Assembly: GCA_016178705.1 (NCBI GenBank)
Contig: JACOST010000014.1
Coordinates: 372,001 to 436,000, forward strand
From: Deltaproteobacteria bacterium
GTDB taxonomy: Bacteria; Desulfobacterota; Binatia; HRBIN30; JACQVA1
Length of the DNA stretch: 64,000 nucleotides
Direction of reading: 5' to 3'
Shown here: piece by piece, positions 11,858 to 57,641 of the stretch
How the letters are laid out: every line of letters begins with the position of its first letter
Position numbering within the stretch: the first letter of the stretch is position 1
Program-made: the position numbers and the translations under genes
The notes under the pieces: generated by a model
The model's input: the letters and a program-made list of their open reading frames with translations, nothing else
Database searches by the model: none
Told to the model about the DNA's origin: nothing

Positions 11858-11904
11858 GCTCAACCGCTGCCGGTCAGCCGCGCTGCCAGGTCCGCTTGTT
11901 AGGC
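11858..11904 (-). other. attC-like recombination site of a gene cassette
   Basis: Read on the minus strand, this 47-base element starts GCCTAACAAGCGG and ends GTTGAGC, matching the integron attC core boxes RYYYAAC and GTTRRRY. Its middle folds as CAGC-GCG-GCTG with further GG/CC pairs around a bulged A. The stop codon TAA of the cassette gene lies inside the first box, as is usual in cassettes. It is somewhat shorter than most known attC sites (about 57-141 bases). Confidence 0.65.
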
Positions 11905-12322
11905 ATGACGTACAGTACTCGCTCCTTGACTGATCCTGCGAGCACGTTCAACTCTCCTTGGAAGACGCCGAATCTGCGCATACCCATAGATGCTGGGGGG
12001 GATCACGAGGACGGCGCCAATCGTAGCCCCTACGTGCCTCGCCAAAGCCCAGCCGATCAAAGCGAACGGCCAGGCAGCCATCGCGCTTGACATACCAATC
12101 AACACGGCCGCCTTGCCCCGCGAAAGAACTCTCTTGTTCGGATCCTGTATGAAGCACTCGAACAGTCGGTCTTCTACTTCCCGGGTCCTCCGCTGCAGCG
12201 CCAATTCCTCCTTATGCAGTATCACGACCTCTTTGCCGAACGCCCAAAGCATCATGACGAAGACCGGAGCTATTCCAACTACGGCAACGATGAGTACGAA
12301 CCATCCCATCTGACGTGCCTAA
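11864..12322 (-). mobile_element. Single integron-type gene cassette (459 bases), no integrase nearby
   Basis: On the minus strand the left end is AAGTTAGGC (12325-12317), whose GTTAGGC exactly complements the GCCTAAC box at 11904-11898 after the gene. The cassette thus carries both halves of its own attC, cut at G/TT, with the outer right box (GTTGAGC) contributed by the host. One gene fills it, starting 7 bases after the core site. This geometry is that of insertion at a secondary site between the GNAT gene and the GT39 operon. Confidence 0.62.
11899..12309 (-). CDS. Cassette-encoded small membrane protein, unknown function
   Basis: The 136-residue protein has a hydrophobic N-terminal segment (residues 2-24, WFVLIVAVVGIAPVFVMMLW), a charged helical stretch (KEELALQRRTREVEDRLFECF) and two more hydrophobic segments near 66-86 and 88-108. 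A basic tail ends it. I recognise no family. Its base composition is visibly less GC-rich than its neighbours, its start lies 7 bases after an integron core site, and its TAA is inside the attC box, all signs of a mobile gene cassette. Confidence 0.65.
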   Translation of the reverse strand: MGWFVLIVAVVGIAPVFVMMLWAFGKEVVILHKEELALQRRTREVEDRLFECFIQDPNKRVLSRGKAAVLIGMSSAMAAWPFALIGWALARHVGATIGAVLVIPPSIYGYAQIRRLPRRVERARRISQGASTVRHA

Positions 12323-12425
12323 CTTGGAGTTCGGTGTAGCAACAGAATCCCCAACCCGCGCCAATGTGAGCGCGTCAACGCCATCTCATTCACGCTCGCC
12401 TCATACACCTGCGTCGGTCAGCCGT

Positions 12426-13994
12426 TCAAGCGGCTCCGCGCGTCAGCCGCCACAGTTGGCCCCGCTCGTAAGCCGGATCGAGGTGCCAGTGTTGCTCCGC
12501 CATGACGCGCTGCAAATTCGGCTGGGGCGCGAAGACGAAGACATCGGCGTATTCGGGCGGCACGCGGGGGACATCGCCGGCGCGAACGACCAGCACGTCG
12601 ATGCCGGCGTCGATCGCGTAGCTCAGTGACAAGATGCCGACCGCCTCGTCGCTGATCACCAGCGGCCGCTGGGCGCTGTGCGCGGCTTGTTCAATGATGT
12701 GGGCGACTTCCCAGTTGTAGCGGCTGAAGCTCTTCGTCCACCACGTCTCGGCGCGGCAGAACGCCGCGTCGGACACGATGCCGGCCGCGAGGACGACGGC
12801 GACCACCGCTTGCCACCGGCGCCGCGCTTCGCTCTCCATCTGCGTCGCCAGCCAGTGCGCGAGCGCCAGTTGCAATCCGATGTAACAGGGGAACAGGTAG
12901 CGCGCGACGCTCAAGCGCACGCCGCCGAGCACGAGGTCCGGTAGTCCGAACACCGCGAGCGACGGGCCGATCAATGTCACCACGAACAGCCATACCCGAC
13001 GCGGCGTGCGGCGCACCAGCCACCACAGTCCCACGCTCATGAATAGGTTGATCGGCACGCTGAGGTAGTAGAACGTATTGTCGTCGCGCAACCGCGCGTC
13101 GAACACCACGCACGCGAAGTTCAACGCGATGGTCTTGATGTAGGGTAGGAAGGCCGTCGGCTGGCCCACCCAACGCATCTGCTCCATGGCCACGGCCCAT
13201 TGTTGGATGAGATTCACCAACCACGGCGTGCAGAGGAGAACGCCAGCGAGGACCGCGCTCAGATAGCGCCGCATGAGTGCCGGGGCGATCTTGCCCTCTG
13301 CGGTCTGCCGCTCACGCGCACTGCCGTAAACGTACAACCCGTGCCCGAGCACCACCAACGCGGACGGCAAATGAATCCATAGACCGACGCCAACGACCAC
13401 CGCGTAGAGCGACCAATTCCACGAGGTGGGGCGTCGCACCGCTCGCAACAACACCGCGCTGGAGAGCAGGATGCTGACGTCCCACAAACTATAGACACGC
13501 GCTTCCTGCGCGTACACGACGTGGATCGGCGATACGGCGACAAGCGCCCCCATCAACAACGCGCTGGGCCACTGACCAAACAGTTCCCATCCCAGCCAGA
13601 CGGCCAGCGGCAGCGCCAGCACGCTGATGGTGGCGGAGAGCGCACGCAAGGACTCCACCGAATCGCCGGTGACCTGGACCCACGCCCACAACAAGGTCAC
13701 GTACGACGGCGCTTGATGTGGTTCCGTGCGCGCGAACACATCGAAGACATCGCGCCAGCGGACGCCGGGCCGAGCGTGCTTGTACTCGGCCAGCATCTCG
13801 ATCGGCAGCGGGCGGTTCAGCGCCAATGCTGCGCGCACGTCCTCGGCGCTGTGAGCACACAGCCACAGCTTGGTGAACGCTTCGTCGTAGCGATAGACGC
13901 GGCGATCGAGATTGCTGAAGCGGAAGCAGACGCCGAGCACCATCAGCGCCAGCAACCTCAGTACGATACCCGGGCGCGCGCGCGTCGCGCTCAT
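12426..13994 (-). CDS. GT39-like (ArnT/PMT) membrane glycosyltransferase
   Basis: The 522-residue integral membrane protein has the family layout: an early acidic periplasmic motif VYRYDEAFTKLW (the DE pair after helix 1), YVTLLWAWVQVTGDSVESLRALSA, SPIHVVYAQEARVYSLW with QEAR, and about ten later helices. A soluble C-terminal tail follows. Such enzymes use polyprenyl-phosphate sugars to glycosylate lipid or protein on the outer face of the inner membrane. ATG 13994 overlaps the stop of the upstream paralogue (ATGA). The much longer frame upstream is not needed. The two adjacent genes look like tandem duplicates. Confidence 0.85.
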   Translation of the reverse strand: MSATRARPGIVLRLLALMVLGVCFRFSNLDRRVYRYDEAFTKLWLCAHSAEDVRAALALNRPLPIEMLAEYKHARPGVRWRDVFDVFARTEPHQAPSYVTLLWAWVQVTGDSVESLRALSATISVLALPLAVWLGWELFGQWPSALLMGALVAVSPIHVVYAQEARVYSLWDVSILLSSAVLLRAVRRPTSWNWSLYAVVVGVGLWIHLPSALVVLGHGLYVYGSARERQTAEGKIAPALMRRYLSAVLAGVLLCTPWLVNLIQQWAVAMEQMRWVGQPTAFLPYIKTIALNFACVVFDARLRDDNTFYYLSVPINLFMSVGLWWLVRRTPRRVWLFVVTLIGPSLAVFGLPDLVLGGVRLSVARYLFPCYIGLQLALAHWLATQMESEARRRWQAVVAVVLAAGIVSDAAFCRAETWWTKSFSRYNWEVAHIIEQAAHSAQRPLVISDEAVGILSLSYAIDAGIDVLVVRAGDVPRVPPEYADVFVFAPQPNLQRVMAEQHWHLDPAYERGQLWRLTRGAA

Positions 13995-55135: not shown

Positions 55136-55369
55136 ATGAAGGTTGCTATTTCCGTACCCGATCGGGTGTTCGAAGAAGCCGAACTGGTGGCGAAACGCCT
55201 GCGCGTGTCGCGCAGCCGCGTCTACTCCCAAGCGATCGAGGAGTTTGTGACCAAGCATCGCGGGAAGAGCGTGAGCGAATCACTCGACGCGGTATACGGG
55301 CGCACGGCGCAAGGGCTCGATGCGGTGCTGACAGAGCTCCAGGCGCGCGCGCTACGCGAGAAGTGGTGA
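55136..55369 (+). CDS. Ribbon-helix-helix-type antitoxin
   Basis: The 77-residue protein begins KVAISVPDRVFEEAELVAKRLRVSRSRVYSQAIEEFV, an RHH-like strand and two helices, followed by an acidic, helical tail (ESLDAVYGRTAQGLDAVLTELQ). This is the standard design of MazE-type or RHH antitoxins that precede MazF. Its last base overlaps the toxin ATG (stop TGA with ATG). The operator-like dyad lies immediately upstream. Confidence 0.85.
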   Translation: MKVAISVPDRVFEEAELVAKRLRVSRSRVYSQAIEEFVTKHRGKSVSESLDAVYGRTAQGLDAVLTELQARALREKW

Positions 55370-55707
55370 TGCGCAAAGGCGAGATCTGGTGGGCGGCACT
55401 GGGTCAGCCGTTTGGGTCGGCACCAGGCTTTCGCCGTCCGGTCGTGATCTTGCAAACCAACAGCTTCAACGACAGCCCGATCCGCACAGTGATCGTAGCA
55501 GCGATCACTTCCAACCTTGATCTCGCCGCGGCCCCTGGCAATGTTCTCTGTCGTCGCCGAGACACCGGTCTGTCAAAGAACTCCGTCGTGAACGTGTCGC
55601 AGGTGGCGACGATCGACAAGCAAGCACTACTCAACCGCGTGGGAACGCTGGCCGCGCCGAAACTCGCGGCAGTAGAAGAAGGACTGCGGTTAGTGCTCGG
55701 TCTGTGA
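55369..55707 (+). CDS. MazF/PemK-type toxin (mRNA interferase)
   Basis: The 112-residue protein has the MazF fold: GEIWWAALGQPFGSAPGFRRPVVILQTNSFN, RTVIVAAITSNLD, GLSKNSVVNVSQVATIDKQALLNRVGTL. The conserved R of RRPVVIL and the S/T of the T.N...V loop are present. It would cut RNA and stop translation if freed from its antitoxin. After its stop, 277 bases (55708-55984) hold no supported gene, apart from an attC-like site. Confidence 0.9.
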   Translation: MRKGEIWWAALGQPFGSAPGFRRPVVILQTNSFNDSPIRTVIVAAITSNLDLAAAPGNVLCRRRDTGLSKNSVVNVSQVATIDKQALLNRVGTLAAPKLAAVEEGLRLVLGL

Positions 55708-55920
55708 GCACCGCACGTCCTCAACCGCAGCGGCCGCAGCATCGAGGTCCGGCGGACCCACCTCCTCGCGGGGGAGCGCTTCGGCCGATAGCCCGCGAGC
55801 CTCGCGGCTTATCGCGTCGCCGTGGGCAAGTAGACGAACAGCGAAGGCGCTGGACGGGGCAGACCCAGCCGCAGTATGAGGACGGCACAATGGTCACTGA
55901 GCTATTAGCCCGCGAAGCTC

Positions 55921-55965
55921 GCGCAACTTGTGGGTCGGGCCCCGCGGGCCAATTCAAGGTTATGT
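55921..55965 (+). other. attC-like site before the first of two cassettes
   Basis: GCGCAACTTG at 55921 and CAAGGTTATGT ending at 55965 pair as AACTTG/CAAG-G-TT with one bulged G. They enclose a GGCCC-CGC-GGGCC hairpin. GTTATGT is the exact complement of the ACATAAC box after the next gene. This could be a host-derived secondary site or an upstream attC; the first box deviates from RYYYAAC. Confidence 0.5.
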
Positions 55966-55984
55966 TCTCTGAGCTACGCATCGT

Positions 55985-56602
55985 ATGAACGATTCTCTTC
56001 CACAGATTACGGTCAGCTACGACGAGAGCATTCCCGCGGAGATCGGCGTCGGCTTTCGGAACGCGGTAGATGACCAGGGGCTGCACGTGCGAGTCGAATC
56101 CCGTCCCGCGCGCGGCCCTCAATCGGGAGTTGAATTGCTCCTGTCAACCGCGGTCTTCGTCCTCCTTGCGAGGTCATACTTTGATGCCTTCCTGAAGGAG
56201 GCGGGGAAAGACCACTACCACCTGCTGAAGTCCGGCATGTCATGGTTGTGGAGAACCCTTCTCAGCAGGGAGCGCAAAGTCAACCCGCGGAGGGTCACGA
56301 CCGGTGGCAAGATCCTGAAGGGCGACTACTCGTTCGCACTGTCGGTAGTAGCTGAGGCAGCCGGCAGCGTTCAATTCAAGCTGCTCATTCAGGACTCTTT
56401 GACCGAGGAACAGTTTCATGACGTCATCGTAGCGTTCCTGGACTTCGTAGCCGCGTACGACGCCAACCAGCTGGGTGCCAGCCTCGCGGAGGAGATCTGT
56501 GAAGGACGAGTCGTTGGACGACCCACACTGATTGCATACGACGAGCAGGCAGGCGGCCTTCGCGTGGTGGATCCAAAGCGGCGTAGCGACAAACGAACAT
56601 AA
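55985..56602 (+). CDS. Cassette-encoded protein of unknown function with membrane segment
   Basis: The 205-residue protein starts LPQITVSYDESIPAEIGVGFRNAV, has a hydrophobic stretch VELLLSTAVFVLLARSYFDAFL near 49-70 (probable membrane helix), then EAGKDHYHLLKSGMSWLWRTLL and a soluble domain ending DPKRRSDKRT. I recognise no family. It starts 19 bases after a core site, and its TAA is inside the attC box ACATAAC. Its base composition is visibly less GC-rich than the flanking genes. The linked protease and toxin genes make a role in defence or toxicity conceivable, but this is a guess. Confidence 0.65.
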   Translation: MNDSLPQITVSYDESIPAEIGVGFRNAVDDQGLHVRVESRPARGPQSGVELLLSTAVFVLLARSYFDAFLKEAGKDHYHLLKSGMSWLWRTLLSRERKVNPRRVTTGGKILKGDYSFALSVVAEAAGSVQFKLLIQDSLTEEQFHDVIVAFLDFVAAYDANQLGASLAEEICEGRVVGRPTLIAYDEQAGGLRVVDPKRRSDKRT

Positions 56603-56660
56603 CAAGACGATGGAGACCGACGCCAACGAGGGGCGCAGCTCATCGCCACGACAGTTAGCC
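56597..56660 (+). other. attC site between the two cassettes
   Basis: This 64-base element starts ACATAACAAGACG and ends GTTAGCC. CGATGGAG pairs with CTCATCG leaving one bulged G, the extrahelical base expected in attC arms, and CGCC pairs with GGCG further in. TAAC and GTTA close the stem. Length and structure are typical of integron attC sites. Confidence 0.7.
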
Positions 56661-56683
56661 CACTGCTGAGATCGGAAGACACC

Positions 56684-57526
56684 ATGGAAGGGTCAGAGCG
56701 GTCGTCGACAGCGCTGGAGTTCCTCTGCCGACACTTGGTGGCGCTGTGTGTCACCTATCAGGAGTGCAACGAGTCCGGCCCAACTGGGGAGCCGCGGTTC
56801 TTCGCTTGCCCCGGGACCATAATTTGCGTTCGCGGCGTTGGCGCGTTTCTGACTGCCGGTCATACGTTGAAGGACTGGGACAAGTTGCTCAAGCAAGGCA
56901 AGGTCCGAGTGATCAGCGCGGCGCTTGCAGATACGTTCGGCTCGGAATGCGTGACGGTGGAGCCGATACCGTTCGACTTCGTGAACGAGCCACGATTCTA
57001 CATCGATGACGACGAGGAAGGCCTAGATTTCGGGCTAATCTCCCTGCGGCCGTACTATGCTCGCCTGCTTGCAAGAAACGGAGTTAAGGCGATCTTCGAG
57101 GAGAACTGGATAAACCAGCACACGATCGAATTTGACGGTTACGCCATGATCGGTTTCCCGGATGAATTCATCACATCGAGGATCGAAAGCTCGTGCGGTG
57201 AGGTATATGTACTGGGAGTGGTTTCACCGACGATGATTCCGTTGAAGCGGCTCGAACAGGCGCCCCCAGGCAGGCCCACACGGTTGCCTCGCTTCATCGG
57301 ACAGCTGCATCCGGATCTCCAGATCGGCAGCATCAAGGGCATGAGCGGCGGACCGATCTTGGGATTCAGATTTGGGCCACCGATGGCATACTGGGTTGTC
57401 GCGATTCAGAGTTCCTGGCTCCCCCATGAACGGATCACCTTCGGCTGTCCGGTGCCGGTTCTTGCTGAGTTGATTGCCGCGTGGGTTGACGATCTTCCCG
57501 AGCAGCATGGTGGCATCGATCCCTGA
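56684..57526 (+). CDS. Cassette-encoded trypsin-like serine protease
   Basis: The 280-residue protein has a catalytic triad pattern: GAFLTAGHTL (His), LDFGLISL (Asp), and SIKGMSGGPILGF (Ser in GxSGGP). It has no signal peptide, so is probably cytoplasmic. The extended region before the His (EFLCRHLVALCVTYQECN) and the tail are unassigned. Cytoplasmic trypsin-like proteases are known as effectors in some anti-phage systems, but nothing here shows it. The gene starts 23 bases after a core box and lies 31 bases from the attC-like site behind it. Confidence 0.8.
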   Translation: MEGSERSSTALEFLCRHLVALCVTYQECNESGPTGEPRFFACPGTIICVRGVGAFLTAGHTLKDWDKLLKQGKVRVISAALADTFGSECVTVEPIPFDFVNEPRFYIDDDEEGLDFGLISLRPYYARLLARNGVKAIFEENWINQHTIEFDGYAMIGFPDEFITSRIESSCGEVYVLGVVSPTMIPLKRLEQAPPGRPTRLPRFIGQLHPDLQIGSIKGMSGGPILGFRFGPPMAYWVVAIQSSWLPHERITFGCPVPVLAELIAAWVDDLPEQHGGIDP

Positions 57527-57557
57527 TGACGGGACCGCGAATGATGGGAAGGTGGAG

Positions 57558-57641
57558 GGCTAACAAGCGCCTCGATCGGTCCGGCTTCACCGCTGCTCGT
57601 GAGCGTCGGTGCGCCGGCCGCTCAGCCGCTGGGCGCTAGCC
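57558..57641 (+). other. attC-like site closing the array
   Basis: This 84-base element starts GGCTAACAAGCGCC and ends GGGCGCTAGCC. Paired segments are GGCTA/TAGCC, GCGCC/GGCGC, CCGGC/GCCGG and CACCG/CGGTG, so it folds into one long imperfect hairpin. The last core box reads GCT where GTT is expected, which might make it inactive. The rest of 57642-57907 holds no gene I can support. Confidence 0.6.

Follow-up and report, generated by a model that had tools for sequence, protein, structure and literature searches.

The minus strand of the window (the whole 64,000-nucleotide stretch of DNA that was analysed) carries a 459-bp unit with the anatomy of an integron gene cassette, and the chances are slightly better than even that this single cassette was left at an orphan attI-like site as the relic of an old integron. 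The observations behind this reading are its box anatomy, its ORF, its low GC content, the likeness of its attC to those of the class, a repeated sequence on its 5' side and integrase remnants elsewhere in the genome. A lone cassette can be interpreted as an insertion at a random site of a genome; here, the DNA ahead of several such cassettes, the present one included, looks attI-like. If the attI reading holds, many scattered cassettes would be worn-out integrons, and the natural rate of off-target insertion would be overestimated.

Anatomy of the cassette and its attC site

Read 5' to 3' on the minus strand, with slashes marking the junctions, the unit runs ...ACTCCAAG/TTAGGCACGTCAGATGGG...CATGCCTAACAAGCGGACCTGGCAGCGCGGCTGACCGGCAGCGG/TTGAGCGACGCC and comprises the following features:

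12323..12435, minus strand: attI-like 5' flank, with family copies at C14:227k, C14:586k and G014:C259
12317..12323, minus strand: 5' box GTTAGGC, of which G belongs to the flank and TTAGGC to the cassette
11864..12322, minus strand: gene cassette of 459 bp, from the TT of the 5' junction to the G of the 3' junction (T12322 to G11864)
11899..12309, minus strand: ORF of 136 amino acids, small membrane-type, with its TAA within the closing box GCCTAAC
11858..11904, minus strand: attC of 47 nt without apical stem, with R'' GCCTAAC and outer R' GTTGAGC, of which TTGAGC belongs to the flank

Both junctions of the cassette are G/TT, and a GTTRRRY 5' box (GTTAGGC) and its inverse RYYYAAC 3' box (GCCTAAC) enclose an ORF that starts 14 nt inside the 5' box, as in an integron gene cassette. 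The original prediction had described this 459-base unit with its small membrane-protein ORF and the TAA in the box, all of which can be read directly in the sequence, and had traced the outer right box GTTGAGC to the host, which agrees with TTGAGC being flanking DNA. The box alone is no evidence, as GTTAGGC occurs three times in the window with 2.35 copies expected, and a loose form of the cassette anatomy was present in 4 of 60 dinucleotide shuffles of the window. A strict form, which demands RYYYAAC, an exactly inverted 5' box, an ORF start within 70 nt, an ORF stop at the box, R' pairing at 6 or more of 7 positions and a symmetric hairpin, was absent from all 700 dinucleotide shuffles and occurs once in the real window, at this unit; these criteria were written after the site had been seen, and the result is thus support rather than a clean p-value. 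Independent support for the cassette nature comes from the base composition: the GC content is 57.7% in the cassette versus 65-66% in the flanks, and among 461-bp segments of the window, GC is lowest in a second array and in the unit itself.

The product of the ORF is predicted to be a small membrane protein of the cassette type. No relatives were found in genome contigs, plasmids or viral contigs, a search of 395 genomes of the phylum gave weak matches only (best E 0.002), and a single-sequence model returned an all-helical structure of low confidence (pLDDT 66). The cassette lies between a PMT_2-like glycosyltransferase gene, whose PMT_2 assignment is a weak match under the Pfam cut-off, and a GNAT gene; the cassette and both genes are on one strand, and transcription of the glycosyltransferase gene, which has the same direction as the orphan gene, may read through into the latter. 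The GNAT gene starts 70 nt beyond the cassette. It was considered as a next cassette and rejected, since no GCTCAAC closing box is found nearby and the gene overlaps the one that follows.

Described attC sites measure about 57 to 141 bp, so that 47 nt is short. For comparison, attC sites were gathered from arrays of the same class, 19 of which were aligned to build a covariance model. The site in question reached 10.9 bits (E 1.7 per window) with this model, versus 32.2 and 23.2 bits for the two attC sites of the other array; after removal of the apical stem from the model, a version picked with the site in mind, it became the top match of the window (14.4 bits, E 0.15). Rfam gave no match. 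The site follows the class pattern AACAAGCGG...GCGGCTGACC...GTT, also given as AACAAGCGG...GCGCGGCTGACC...GTT, but its apical stem is missing and its L'' side carries additional bases. The structure modelling that had been proposed for the 47-base attC was carried out on the bottom strand as single-stranded DNA: with the present outer box, the integrated site does not adopt an attC fold (z +0.99), it is weakly attC-like when its own boxes are restored (z -1.6), and the cassette C14:71k of the same genome reaches z -4.9. It is a stunted and probably decayed member of the class attC family, and it was recognised through the cassette anatomy rather than through a covariance search.

The attI-like flank and integrase remnants

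The approximately 118 bp ahead of the 5' junction have homologues at three further loci within the same order, as revealed by searching for the flank family in about 1.6 Mb of source genome sequence (with overlaps) and in selected loci of relatives. Matches of 65-67% over 118-119 bp, ending at the box, were obtained with C14:227k of the source genome (E 3e-8) and G014:C259 of another genome (E 3e-12). The latter had first appeared as a short 5'-flank match in a search of the order with the joined flanks, a match that extends over 95-119 bp. The G014:C259 copy ends at a GTTCGGC box, which is followed by a small ORF and, where the contig ends, by a 5' half resembling attC, and the copy at C14:227.5k ends at GTTAGAC. 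An attI is characterised by a conserved sequence that ends at G/TT right before the first cassette, and the alignments of the flank with these two loci do end at the box. Furthermore, the G014:C259 copy scored above all 4293 background sites when compared with the attI next to the degraded C25 intI. Several observations count against the attI reading: the C14:586k copy, also from the source genome, has no intact GTT box, no attC was found behind the copy at C14:227k, and the flank of the unit itself, when scored directly against attI sites adjacent to intI, was only in the top 3-5% of the background. An intI vestige, which would be expected next to an attI, was not found upstream of the unit.

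Several other dispersed cassettes of the genome also appear to follow attI-like sequence, some of them with intI vestiges. The DNA upstream of C14:71k, C9:2556, C31:224k and C31:232k had a mean attI score above all 8000 background sites, and the DNA upstream of the array at 55958 was in the top 0.08% of the background. The loci C31:224k, C31:232k and C9:2556 (L159, L158) have 171-269 bp of upstream sequence in common, which are 83-89% identical and end at the box; a search for intI remnants at the three loci gave no convincing ones, and they constitute a second attI-like family of orphan sites.

The class attC model detected 19 sites at E<0.05 in the whole genome, and a closer search of fetched regions gave around 30 attC candidates at around 20 loci, several of which have the same anatomy of box, ORF and attC. 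An intact full-length integron integrase was not found in the assembly; remnants of intI are present at C25, where the gene is broken over three frames, and at C6, C31:142k, C27 and C14:225k, and attC sites follow the remnants at C25, C6, C31 and C27. In addition, C14:71k keeps a short IntI fragment. The original prediction had taken scattered single cassettes as a sign of ongoing dispersal in this genome. The scattering is evident from the 19 attC sites; ongoing dispersal, however, is not supported: the integrase is seen in the assembly as remnants only, and the attC does not fold as integrated. The remnants share ends near residues 110-135; the idea that they are one mobile deletion derivative was dropped, since the region concerned may simply be the one that stays best conserved as the gene decays.

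Within the class, IntI exceeds the family cut-off in 38 of 148 genomes; attC sites occur widely across the order, and some relatives have a partial intI near their arrays. At L054, L057, L096, L099 and other loci of the class, intI is followed by attI and then by the array, which is oriented like intI; the class 1 integron has the reverse layout. The degraded intI of G000:C25 (L030 1332-2154) contains an inserted short repeat of the PALSLSKG type, and the first cassette at this locus is a TIR-like ORF. In several attC sites of the source genome (L154 5518-5604, L162 6249-6310 and L032 2934-3026), the R'' box ends with AAG instead of AAC (GCCCAAG, GCCGAAG).

Origin of the unit

According to the proposed mechanism, an integron integrase would have recombined a circular cassette, whose attC (GCCTAAC...GTTAGGC) was folded from the bottom strand, with the attI-like site at G/TT, thereby leaving the attI-like left half (approximately 12323-12435) 5' of the cassette and TTGAGC... 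3' of it. The integrase gene would have been lost from this locus; at other loci of the genome, integrase remnants immediately precede comparable attI-like sites and short arrays. Having lost its apical stem, the attC probably has little or no recombination activity.

Two known types of element come close to this arrangement. Clusters of attC sites lacking an integron-integrase are referred to as CALIN, and even one attC on its own can be a true positive (IntegronFinder, PMC9024848). The unit resembles a CALIN or single-attC element in being a cassette without an adjacent integrase and without an intact intI nearby; however, its attC is too stunted for detection by a covariance model, and attI-like sequence is located on its 5' side. 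Decayed sedentary chromosomal integrons of Xanthomonas consist of an intI pseudogene and a short array (PMC12444791). Integrase remnants and short arrays are likewise found elsewhere in the source genome, but the unit itself has no intI vestige.

Alternatively, an integrase acting in trans could have inserted the cassette at a non-classical genome site of the attG type (G/TT) between the glycosyltransferase and GNAT genes, an explanation that deserves attention but that we regard as unlikely. Cassette insertion at attG sites was reportedly described by Loot et al. in 2024. The likeness lies in a single cassette at G/TT away from an integron, and the difference in the 5' side, which is a repeated attI-like sequence here rather than unrelated host DNA. 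An attG-type insertion would fit the G/TT junctions at both ends, the lack of an intI vestige at the locus and the modest direct attI score of the flank, and such insertions are described in work cited by PMC12901181 and PMC12444791. Against it stand the homology of the repeated 5' flank, which at two further loci stops at a box of the cassette type, and the attI-like sequence ahead of several other lone cassettes of the genome. This is the reading of the original prediction, which had proposed insertion at a secondary G/TT site inside a glycan locus; a random site of this kind is not supported, given a 5' flank that is homologous to three loci of the order and belongs to a family resembling attI. 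A search with the joined flanks, corresponding to the empty allele, found the locus in none of 15 genomes of the order.

The lineage might also possess a family of units without intI that are dispersed around the chromosome, each combining an attI-like site with a single cassette or a few; a single integrase acting in trans would use them as many small platforms for docking. We consider this idea quite doubtful; if true, it would replace the picture of one integron with random off-target insertions. Still less probable is that deletion pared a longer array down to its one remaining cassette: GTTGAGC, the outer box, matches GTTRRRY in the way expected for the box of a following cassette, but neither a further attC-like site in the vicinity nor, downstream, a GCTCAAC closing box around the GNAT gene is present, and the position of that gene, 70 nt further on and overlapping the next one, also argues against it. 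A chance origin, in which an ordinary gene has box-like ends, is very improbable despite an attC model score close to chance, a box at chance frequency, a strict anatomy test devised after the fact and a bottom strand that does not fold as integrated, given that this anatomy is missing from the shuffles, the unit is among the GC minima of the window, the homologous flank ends at the same box and cassettes are abundant in the genome.

The second array and the contig ends

The second array of the window is on the opposite strand:

55714..55743, plus strand: probable vestige of the intI 3' end (HVLNRSGRS), with the upstream 234 bp homologous to C4:75.9k
55958..57641, plus strand: two-cassette array with attC sites at 56597-56660 and 57558-57641

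The cassette at 11864..12322 had been described as lone and as oppositely oriented to an element 44 kb away; this is correct for the cassette, whereas the other element is a two-cassette array rather than a lone cassette. The array has 234 bp of upstream sequence in common with C4:75.9k, where this sequence begins with the last IntI residues (302-315), and it looks like a decayed integron. A mazEF-like toxin-antitoxin pair is located directly upstream of the array, and the HVLNRSGRS vestige comes after the mazF stop; pair and vestige together lie within 55137-55743.

Three contig ends, G000:C25:2-141, C4:75930-76070 and C33:300372-300512 (L030, L155, L157), break in an identical sequence of about 130 bp. 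Since a repeat beside attC is found at the end of several contigs, the assembly could lack an intact intI that the genome has. The sequence of about 130 bp starts within the outer attC box (GTTGAGGCTGTAGAAAAAC...), has copies at nine places of the genome and opens an ORF, MARYKPYNLKQAKM, which presumably resembles IS1182-type transposases; the whole may be an insertion sequence with attC hairpins as its target.
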